A model generated the notes under the pieces. It saw nothing but the letters and a program-made list of their open reading frames with translations. It was not told the DNA's origin and did no database searches. A program made the position numbers and the translations under genes. From assembly GCA_009691915.1 (NCBI GenBank), contig SIAD01000013.1, forward strand, positions 1-60,911: DNA of 60,911 nt, in the 5' to 3' direction. Below, piece after piece: positions 17,714 through 35,500 of the stretch; the first letter of the stretch is position 1; every line of letters begins with the position of its first letter. This stretch comes from Phycisphaerales bacterium (GTDB taxonomy: Bacteria > Planctomycetota > Phycisphaerae > Phycisphaerales > SM1A02).

Positions 17714-17767
17714 GGTGACATCCTACATGATCGTGTTCGACGACGATATGGCAGTTTTCGGCGAACT

Positions 17768-17805
17768 TAACAGAAAAGCACCGCGTCCATCTCTGAACGC
17801 GGTGC
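17768..17805 (-). terminator. Intrinsic terminator of the candidate RNA
   Basis: On the minus strand a perfect 9-bp stem (GCACCGCGT / ACGCGGTGC) with a 10-nt loop is followed by TTTTCTGTT. It lies 55 bp upstream of the ThuA start, so it ends an upstream transcript rather than the ThuA message. Confidence 0.75.
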
Positions 17806-18050
17806 CAAATCCCCAATACTCCCTGTTGGCGCAGTGCGCCGATATCCTTTTCCCTGAACCCTGTCCAGCCTTTCCTTCCCTCCATCCCTCGATCGTCCGA
17901 GCCAACCGGGGCTCCGGGGACCACCCGCCCAGCCCCTTGGCACGCTCCGACGATCTGCATGGCCTCCAACGACAGGGTTTGACTCTGTCCAAGCTCAAGA
18001 ACGAAGTGGGTTTCCCCGTTCCTTGGGCATTCGTTTGTGTTTCTTGGCGC
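17768..18050 (-). ncRNA. Candidate structured RNA of about 280 nt
   Basis: This stretch lacks a convincing protein but has nested complementary segments on the minus strand. AACCCTGTC (17971-17979) pairs with GACAGGGTT (17857-17865). Inside it, GATCGTC (17949-17955) pairs with GACGATC (17891-17897), then GCCAA with TTGGC, then GGGGCT with AGCCCC at the tip. A 5' hairpin (GAACG/CGTTC, 17999-18021) and GGCGCA/TGCGCC (about 17830-17840) are also present. It ends in an intrinsic terminator. A long closed stem, an open middle and an apical stem recall 6S RNA, but no diagnostic motif of 6S, RNase P RNA, tmRNA or SRP RNA was found. The 5' end is a guess. Confidence 0.5.
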
Positions 18051-18189
18051 ACTCTCGTCTGCCGAACGGGGCGCCTCTTGGGTTCTCGAACACCAAGACA
18101 ATCGATTACGACCGGTCGAGATGCAAGCCAATCCGTGGGTATTTCCTGGATTCTTCGCGCGCCGTGGCAAAGGTAGCTCTGGCAGTGAC

Positions 18190-32556: not shown

Positions 32557-35500
32557 GGACTCTCCGGCTCGTCTGGAACTATGTCGGGCTTGATGATCAC
32601 CGGAACATCTTGTCCGGCACGGCCGCGCATCTGTCGCTCGACCGTTTCGCGCAGCGCGTCGGCAAGTCTGGCCACGCTGTCCTGCCGCGTCGCAAGTGCC
32701 TCCAGTGCACCAGCGGGAGTGGAGCCGGCGGCCACGCGCTTGGTTCTGTCATAGATCGTCTGCTGAAGGGAACGAAGCACCTTTAGTTCAGCCAGAGGTG
32801 GAATCAGCGGCTCCTCCTGACCACCACCACCGCCACCGGCTCCTTGACTCCCACGACCACCAGAATCAGGATCTGAAAATGGATCGTCCTTCTTGCGACT
32901 GGCTTGGGATAGTGCCGAGGCGAGTCCACGAAGCGTCTCGAGAACCTCTCGCTCCATCTCGATAGTTCCCTCGGTCGGGGGGCCACCACGAAGGTCTGTC
33001 GCCGCTAGTCCTGCTGCGTCCATCGCGAGCGAGGACGCTTCCATGAAAGTTGGGGACTTCTTCACATCCTCCGATCCATCGGCGATCGCGCCGATCTCGC
33101 TTCGAATCTCTTCCTCCGAGACCCCGAGTCGCCTCGCCTCGACAAGGGTCCTCCGGTCCGATCCGGCGTCGACGAGCGCAATGGACGCGATCACGACCCC
33201 TTCCTGTCGGTCGCAGAGCGTCTTGTACTTCTCGGCGAGCTCTCGTTGACGCTCCTGCCGTTCGATTTCCTCGGTCCGGCGTTCCTGCTCGCGCGCCGCC
33301 GATAGTGCTTCCCTCAAGAGTCCTGTCGAGCGCACCAGTGCCTCGTGGCCAGGTTCGACCTTCGCGGGACTTGTTAGGAACGCGGCTGCTGCCCTCCCCT
33401 CCGCTTCAGCCCCTCGTTCCACAAGTCGAACCACTCGCTGCGCCTGGGGACCTGCCGCGCGCGCCTCATCGGCGACTCCTGAGGCGTTTCGTGATACTCG
33501 TGCCGCCTGTGTTCCGACTCCTGGGGCTGCGATCGCTACTTCGGTGCCATCAGCAGTCAGCAGCGACAGTCCAAGCCCCTCGACACTCTCGGCTTCGCGC
33601 ACGAGAGCCTCGATCGCCTCGGCTATGCCAGCGAGCCTTCGCTTGAGTGCCTGTGTCTTCGACTTCTCGTCATCGGCAAGGTCCTTGATCATCTTTTTGA
33701 CCGTCTCCATCGCGGCTGATGATGCCTGCCGTGCGTCGTCGAGTCTGTTCTCTCTTGTCGCTTGCTCTGCCTGCTCGATGCGCGGCGAGAGAGCCTCTCG
33801 TTCTCCCCGATCAGCCGCCTGTTTGAGAATTGCCGCGCGCTCAGGATCAACTCTCGCTACTTCCGCAGCCCGATCCCTCAGCTGCTCAAGTGTGTCCTGT
33901 GCGGTGTGGGCCGCCTGTTGTGTGGTCTCGGCGGCGCGATCAAGTGCGGCGGCTTCATCGTCGGTTAGGTCCTGTCGGGCGCGGCCGATCGTCCTGGCTG
34001 CTGCTCGTGTGCGCTCGTCGTCGGCGCGGGTGATCGCATCCCCAACCCGCTCGAGTGAGCGGGTCGCAGCGAAGGCTTCCTTGTCGCGGTCCAGCAGTGC
34101 TGCGAGATCGTCGAGTTCACTGCGCACATCCATCTGCGCGGCACGGGCAGCCTCCATCGCCATGTCTTGAGTCGCGTCGCCAGCGCTTGCCTGCACATCC
34201 GCGGCCTCCTGAAGGGCGTTGCGCGCGATTGCGCTGCGCGCCCCGGCTTCGTCGAGGATGTCGCTGGCCGCCGACAGGAGACTGCGCATGGCGTCGTCAT
34301 CGACATGATTACGCTCAGCTCGGCCTTCCAGCGCACCGACTGACTTGCGCAGCGCCTCAATCCTCTCGCTGATCTCCGACTGGGGCCTCAGTTGCGCCGC
34401 TGGGGCATCTGCTCGCTCCATCAGTGCGCGTTCCCGGTCATCGATCCTTATTGCGCCCTGACGGATCGCGGCGAGAGCGTTGCGAGTCTCTTCGTCGAAC
34501 TGCGCCTGATTGAGGATGCGGATCCGTCGCGGCGACGATCGTGTCGGCTCGTGGGTGACCCCCGCTGCCGAGAAGCGATCACTTGCGACACAGGTGATCT
34601 CAAACACATCGCCCGGCGAGGCGCCAGCCAGAGCGAGGTTGAGCTCCACGCTCTCTTCGACCTTCGGTTGGCCGCCAGCACCGACTCGCACCAACTCCTT
34701 CTTCCAGTCGGAGCCTCGTGTTGCCTCGATGTGAAACTCGTCGAGGCCAACATCGTCGCGCCCCTCGGCCCGCAACTGGATTTGGGCCGACGGAAGAACA
34801 GTCTCGTCACTTGATGGTTCGATCATCGTCGCCTCAGGAGCCCCGTCAGCAACGACATCGATGGTCACCTTGATGTCATCGACATTGTGGACGCCGTGAG
34901 GGTCGACGAGTCGGATCGCCATTGATCGGGAGAGATCAGCCACCCATGACACGATCCACACGCCATCACGGACTGATGCCGTTAGTGTTGGTGGTTGACC
35001 TCCAGCCGCCGTTGGTGTCCCCGACCACGCGAATGTCTGTTCAAGCCATTGGGAAAGTTCCGCCGACCCTAACGCGGGGATTCCTAAGTGAGGAGAAGTT
35101 GCAAGCGAGAGCTCGACCATTGATCCCTCGAGCACCGGAACCGGGATCCGTCCTCGACCATGTGTCGCCTTCCCAAGATCGAACGACTCGGGGGTGTGTG
35201 ATGAGGCGTACGGCGGCGGTGTGATGCTGGCCCTCACACCGGTCACTTCGGGTGCGTCCACAAATGTGATCGTCTGGCGTGAAGTCGCCATGTCGCGTGT
35301 GAGAAATAGGAACTCAACCGAATCCGCGGTTGGGTCCATCAATCGTTCAAAGCGAGTCTCGCCCTGATGGATCATGGGAGTCTCTTCCCATGGTCCCGTC
35401 TGGCCATCTTTCGAATTGCGCAGGCGAACCCACACTGGTTCTGTTGCTGGGTCCCCTCGGTATAAGTCTGCCTTGAGCGGGAGCGAAGTCTGCCTGGGAT

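Follow-up and report, generated by a model that had tools for sequence, protein, structure and literature searches.

The question raised by this locus is what occupies the gap of 476 bp (17714-18189) between a ThuA gene (PF06283, 16937-17713) and an ALDH gene (PF00171, 18190-19311), both assigned with Pfam and both on the minus strand of the window, i.e. the whole stretch of 60,911 nucleotides that was analysed. A sequence-only reading had reported this gap, whose limits are borne out, and had placed in it a structured RNA gene with a terminator of its own and no assigned family. That claim is supported by conservation across a genus, compensatory changes on several helices, occurrence in at least three gene neighbourhoods and an upstream TTGCA. 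It is close to certain that a non-coding RNA gene lies in the gap, at about 17774-18090 of the minus strand.

The predicted transcript (17774-18090, minus strand) ends at the terminator U-tract. In 14 of 17 loci TTGCA precedes the AGAGG core by 47-49 nt; in the window it lies at 18122-18126 and, with a 17-nt spacer and a second hexamer read by eye (GATTGT, 18098-18103), makes up a putative promoter (18098-18126, minus strand). Since a standard sigma-70 scan found no promoter at the window locus, we infer the RNA start near 18090 from promoter spacing. RNA lengths given below (323 nt for the window RNA) are counted from 18096, which is 18 nt before the core. The segment originally proposed, 17768-18050, is about 40 nt short at its 5′ boundary, and leaves outside it the most conserved block, AGAGGCGCCCCG (18067-18078, minus strand).

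BLASTN searching of 61 relatives with the gap sequence gave matches in 16 of the 19 genomes of the genus, the source genome included, while outside the genus there were only matches of 23 and 28 nt in two genomes of the order. All 16 genus loci found by BLAST contain the core exactly, but as the first 16 RNAs were cut out by means of the exact core and GGGGAT[TC], the conservation of both strings is partly by construction; locus L078 carries AGAGGTGCCCCG instead. A model of the 5′ domain built from 16 sequences (R1) added two genomes: G001 (E 1.6e-4), where reading of the locus revealed a complete homologue, and G007 (E 2.6e-4), where locus L079 retains part of the 5′ core, as well as the GGA tract and the location ahead of tRNA-Ile, but lacks UUGGGGAU. 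A model of the 3′ domain (R2), from which, as from alignment A4, four group B sequences (L010, L011, L012 and L015) were left out, recovered these four at E 3.9e-9 to 4.6e-8 and found all 17 complete copies, one per genome. Homologues are thus present in 18 of the 19 genus genomes, 17 of them complete and one diverged. In the genus genome G004 the model searches found no convincing homologue of the RNA, though CsrA is present.

R1 and R2 were each run against 400 genomes of the order, 19 of which belong to the genus, and no convincing copy was found outside the genus. Weak matches were seen in 12 genomes with R1 (E 0.004-0.09) and in seven with R2 (E 2.9e-4 to 0.018), these being E-values per genome, for which chance matches are expected. 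By eye, with not every locus read in the orientation of its match, none of the weak loci outside the genus has both a GGA tract and the core. L052 and L136 (both G007) and L132 (G004) resemble coding sequence and were not accepted as homologues. A further weak R1 match in G007 (L135, C215:3786-3866, E 0.002) has GAGAATCCAAGGCC and an upstream TTGCA, and stands directly before tRNA-Met; it is possibly a short paralogue of the 5′ domain, or a chance match. A pattern scan of named genomes returned 16 records. One of them, from Rhizobium (L028), is taken as a chance match and two go under “uncultured bacterium”; the remaining 13 are MAGs whose labels read Planctomycetota, Planctomycetia, Planctomycetaceae, Phycisphaerae, Phycisphaerales or Singulisphaera sp. 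MAG names such as Baikal-deep hint at lakes. The repeat pattern TGGAGGGTAGGAAA occurs in one of 151 family genomes (G001 of the genus) and is too strict to be useful. As far as these searches extend, the RNA gene is confined to one genus of Planctomycetota.

The genes around the RNA change from locus to locus, within the limits set by some loci being cut by contig ends. Within 1.5 kb upstream, one protein is common to eight loci (ALDH by Pfam in the two tested). Downstream, ThuA is found in L001 and L002 only, and another protein, with no Pfam match in the one tested, is common to eleven loci. In group C (L013, L014, L016, L078 and L079) the RNA is followed by tRNA-Ile and a common downstream protein, a lactate/malate dehydrogenase by Pfam in L016, and four of these loci share an upstream protein (CNNM/CBS by Pfam in L016). 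With at least three such neighbourhoods, the RNA is an independent gene.

Sequence comparison points to two long-range helices in the 5′ domain, crossing each other in a pseudoknot-like arrangement (all strands on the minus strand of the window). S2 pairs CCCCGTTC (18064-18071) with GAACGGGG (18014-18021), and S1 pairs GGCG (18072-18075) with CGCC (18046-18049). In the alignment, 98.3% of cells are paired for S2 (CCCCGNNN and its complement, with strands 42 nt apart in the window), and three of its eight pairs are changed on both sides. S1 likewise has 98.3% of cells paired, but it hardly varies and none of its pairs is changed on both sides, so that this helix is consistent with the alignment rather than proven. 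Sliding controls for S1 and S2 together reach 66.1% paired at most, and none of 500 shuffles reaches the observed percentage paired or covariation score, the covariation scores being inflated by the relatedness of the sequences. Counted by two-sided pairs, however, 120 of the 500 shuffles do as well as the alignment, and counted by pair types 106 do, because few columns vary. For the strand CCCCGUUC two partners are available, GAACGGGG (98.3% of cells) and, for part of the strand, a local GACG (93.3%); both pairings are kept. As the local alternative also has one two-sided pair, a switch between the two is possible. A helix closing the 5′ leader (CCAA) with UUGG was considered and rejected for lack of covariation, its 3′ side being almost without variation. 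In group C RNAs the middle domain differs.

Downstream of this domain lies the hairpin P3 (17907-17937, minus strand), recognised by pattern and covariation and carrying the motif YU-RGG-CGAR-loop-YUCG-G-AR. It corresponds to the inner stem with a GC-rich tip described in the sequence-only reading, which is real and kept in 13 of 17 RNAs: by pattern, ten RNAs have two copies, L001, L002 and L009 have a single one, and L013, L014, L016 and L078 have none. Six of its nine pairs are changed on both sides and 92.9% are paired, in an alignment (A3; 22 distinct rows) that pools the two hairpin copies per RNA and includes only RNAs fitting the pattern. Then follow, all on the minus strand, a GGA-rich purine tract evident in the sequence listing (GGGATGGAGGGAAGGAAAGG.., 17842-17888), the hairpin P5 (GGCGC..GCGCC, 17828-17840), the aligned motif AUUGGGGAUU (17808-17817), which contains a GGA, and the intrinsic terminator (17774-17806). 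UUGGGGAU is present in all 17 complete sequences and absent from L079. The terminator, found both by a terminator scan and by covariation, was correctly recognised beforehand; it is a 13-pair hairpin (17777-17806) followed by T’s. Among 13 sequences, P5 has three of five pairs changed on both sides with 100% of cells paired, and the terminator stem seven of 11 with 88.5% of cells paired, one pair failing in seven of the 13; together they are 92.2% paired with 10 of 16 pairs changed on both sides. In the P3 and P5/terminator tests none of 500 shuffles reaches the observed percentage paired or covariation score. Across the homologues, compensatory changes support the 5′ long-range helix, P3, a 3′ hairpin (P5) and the terminator.

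Two further structural claims fared less well. The proposed outer helix (18023-18033 with 17806-17816) is not conserved and its 3′ side is nearly invariant; at the five positions tested, the last five, the numbers paired in the 16 sequences of alignment A1, which leaves out L078 and L079, are 5, 5, 4, 4, 4, 4, 4, 3, 3, 2, 3, 3, 4, 4, 3 and 1. The segment as first reported does fold better than 200 of 200 shuffles (z -3.94), but most of this surplus is due to the terminator: once the terminator is removed and the segment is lengthened on its 5′ side (17808-18091), z comes to -1.56, with 13 of 200 shuffles folding equally well. Single-sequence folding without the terminator is weak evidence, and the comparison of sequences is stronger.

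An Rfam search of the window gave no family match at cut-off for the RNA, and we regard it as a well-supported RNA family that goes unmatched in Rfam 15. RNase P is accounted for by the sole RF00010 match in the source genome (250.5 bits), on another contig. No tmRNA or SRP RNA was found in the window at the Rfam cut-off or in the 17 loci up to E 10, nor any tmRNA by ARAGORN in 13 loci. When the RNA of L006 was searched alone against 4227 Rfam families, the best match was RsmY, of the CsrA-binding clan (E 0.013, 19.2 bits against a cut-off of 57). This sub-threshold resemblance is seen in four of the 17 loci, all closely related members of group A (L003, L005, L006 and L007; E 0.3-3.7), with a best score of 21.7 bits (L003) where 57 are needed; it leans on the terminator, and the reverse strand also gives a weak RsmY match. 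The window RNA matches no RsmY/CsrB-type family among the Rfam models. In group B, the 3′ ends of L010 and L012 match the BjrC68 sRNA family about as well as the RsmY cases.

The RNAs are rich in GGA. The 17 that were counted (L079 was left out) carry 14-31 GGA in 323-464 nt, compared with E. coli CsrB (22 GGA, 369 nt) and CsrC (14 GGA, 246 nt). Relative to dinucleotide shuffles, GGA is among the top five over-represented of the 64 triplets in 15 of the 17, ranking second in CsrB and fifth in CsrC, but this excess does not count 17 times, given the relatedness of the RNAs and the repeats within the tract. The exceptions are L009, with no excess (rank 21, z 0.5), and L078, with little (rank 8, z 1.3). 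RNase P RNA of the source genome (z -1.0) and the 6S candidates of four relatives (z -0.3 to 1.8) show no GGA excess. Of 15 named contig stretches, each 5-8 kb long, 13 have their GGA-richest 350 nt overlapping the RNA; the two stretches without overlap (L030 and L032) end inside the RNA. GGA is also contained in the conserved UUGGGGAU and in the GGGGA with which S2 ends. UCC is infrequent, at 1-7 per RNA. Elsewhere in the window, a minus-strand stretch inside a 1165-aa frame (32837-33364) is as GGA-dense, with 19 against 18 per 323 nt.

By partition function, GGA shows less pairing than an average base does in each of the 17 RNAs. In minimum-energy folds, 120 of the 374 GGA in these RNAs are fully unpaired and 23 lie in hairpin loops; for the window RNA, two of 17 are unpaired and none is in a hairpin loop. 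The corresponding folds of CsrB have 16 of 22 GGA unpaired and nine in hairpin loops, and those of CsrC seven and four of 14.

A potential partner for such sites is encoded in the genus. One divergent CsrA-family gene (E 9.6e-15 to 1.4e-13) is found in 18 of the 19 genus genomes, and none in G017; of 42 genomes from outside the genus, 33 have at least two such matches. Canonical CsrA (E 1e-21 or better) is found in 14 of 18 genomes from other genera of the family; the divergent type also scores in most other genomes of the order, where no homologue of the RNA was seen. In the five genus CsrA proteins that were read, the MLVITRR start and VHR are kept, which we take to be the RNA-binding parts of CsrA, and one genus CsrA aligns with solved CsrA/RsmE chains (best E 5.9e-8). 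FliW (PF02623) was found in none of the 19 genus genomes, but in 57 of the 61 genomes of the order sample, the four without it being three of the genus and G023. In the genomes that were read, the divergent CsrA gene adjoins a frame that is presumably NifU-like, and one canonical gene precedes another, presumably flagellin-like.

According to the review PMC7652899, CsrB carries 22 GGA, CsrA sites are favoured in hairpin loops or single strands, and FliW is a protein antagonist of CsrA in other bacteria. On the strength of the GGA excess, the retention of a divergent CsrA and the missing FliW, we propose, at just short of an even chance, that the RNA is a CsrA-sequestering sRNA of the CsrB/RsmY kind, with a mechanism that we infer as follows. 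Many GGA sites would be provided by the purine tract ahead of P5, by the conserved GGGGAU preceding the terminator and by the GGGGA with which S2 ends; these would bind several CsrA dimers, drawing CsrA off mRNAs, and the RNA would be shielded at its two ends by the folded 5′ domain and the terminator. As FliW is an antagonist of CsrA in other bacteria, the RNA might stand in for this protein, which is present in most of the order and lacking in the genus. Also in favour of a sponge are the overlap of the GGA-richest contig segments with the RNA, the lower pairing of GGA by partition function, the scarcity of UCC and RsmY as best match of the L006 RNA. Counted against a sponge are the few GGA that are unpaired or in hairpin loops in minimum-energy folds, relative to CsrB and CsrC, the missing or small GGA excess in L009 and L078, the equally GGA-dense coding stretch in the window, the divergent CsrA type in other genomes of the order that show no RNA homologue, the RsmY resemblance being sub-threshold and accompanied by BjrC68 matches, the P3 motif and 5′ domain, which have no role in a plain sponge, and G004, which has CsrA without a detected RNA.

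The conserved parts of the RNA suggest another reading, somewhat unlikely in our view, in which it acts in trans: the partners of the 5′ domain, P3 and UUGGGGAU would be mRNAs, bound at C-rich sites like AUCCCCAA, or some protein different from CsrA, and the GGA tract would serve as a spacer. The 5′ core and UUGGGGAU are indeed the most conserved parts while the length of the GGA tract varies, and the two kept pairings of CCCCGUUC would suit a switch, but this reading leaves the CsrB/CsrC-like GGA excess unexplained. The purine-rich sequence also admits two improbable readings. GGAGG, which occurs 1-8 times per RNA, could pass for Shine-Dalgarno sequences and capture 30S subunits or factors that bind the anti-SD, making the RNA a ribosome decoy; however, GGA is far commoner than GGAGG, and some repeats (GGAUGGAUGGGAAGGAA) do not contain GGAGG. 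Marginally less probable again is a G-quadruplex scaffold, in which GG tracts with loops of 1-4 nt would form two-tier quadruplexes as a binding platform. Each of the 17 RNAs has at least one (GGN1-4)3GG run, but with dinucleotide counts fixed, depletion is on average strongest for GGG among the triplets and enrichment strongest for GGA, and two-tier RNA quadruplexes are weak.

Two readings of the whole gene find even less support. The 6S-like shape suggested earlier does not hold up: the conserved helices form a 5′ pseudoknot-like domain and hairpins, with a purine-rich tract, rather than a closed rod with a central bubble, and RF00013 (SsrS) has no match up to E 10 in the source genome, the control matching in eight of 14 named genomes. 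That the RNA is a diverged 6S RNA binding RNA polymerase is thus very improbable, its length of 323-464 nt and the unconserved outer helix also arguing against it. In the order sample, 6S candidates were found in 27 of 61 genomes but in none of the three from the genus, which would suit a diverged 6S RNA; however, nine of the 13 other family members are also without a match, the exceptions being G062, G063, G080 and G091. Of the 27 candidates, 22 are 158-196 nt long and seven score above the Rfam cut-off; the other 20 score below it. The 6S model may fit this order badly, and 6S RNA may have been missed rather than be absent in the genus. Least credible of all is an mRNA leader or small-protein gene. 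The competing frames, as stated in the sequence-only reading, have no protein-like composition: those of 158, 109, 58 and 185 aa match relatives in short or interrupted pieces only, the best uninterrupted match being 28 aa at 75% in L002; the flanking proteins, by comparison, have 62-70% identity over their length in relatives. A frame beginning MRK.. is open mid-RNA in L014 and L016, with many third-position differences between the two by eye, which could speak for a protein, but the stretch lies within a long stem and has, also by eye, single-base length differences in L079. With the window frames unconserved and the RNA ending in its own terminator, a coding function for the region was rejected.

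Returning to the CsrA-sequestering reading, its wider form is that such an RNA arose independently in Planctomycetota, where a genus without the canonical CsrA-FliW pair would control its divergent CsrA by a GGA sponge of 320-460 nt with a pseudoknot-like 5′ domain; we hold this more tentatively than the sponge itself. Literature searches found no title on this RNA, and, judged by titles, no description of a CsrA-sequestering RNA in Planctomycetota. If the RNA binds CsrA, sponge RNAs evolved more than once, and if the wider form is true, an RNA would have replaced a protein as CsrA antagonist. PMC7652899 reports that the presence of fliW correlates negatively with that of the BarA-UvrY genes, the drivers of Csr sRNAs, and an RNA binding CsrA here would be a further case of this kind. 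Whatever its function, it is a well-supported RNA family of uncultured planctomycetes.

Among known systems, 6S RNA (SsrS, RF00013) is similarly a single-copy, stand-alone non-coding RNA gene, but it is a closed rod of 160-200 nt with a large central bubble, whereas the genus RNA is about twice as long, has no such rod and does not match the model. FliW (PF02623) would share with it the proposed role of CsrA antagonist, but is a protein and was not found in the genus. The closest comparison is with CsrB, CsrC, RsmY and RsmZ (Rfam clan CL00106). Unlike these, the genus RNA has no match at cut-off, has its GGA chiefly within a purine tract and seldom in hairpin loops, has a conserved pseudoknot-like 5′ domain and the P3 motif, and belongs to a different phylum; it is like them in its length, in the number and excess of GGA, in having its own terminator and in the presence of a CsrA gene in the genome.
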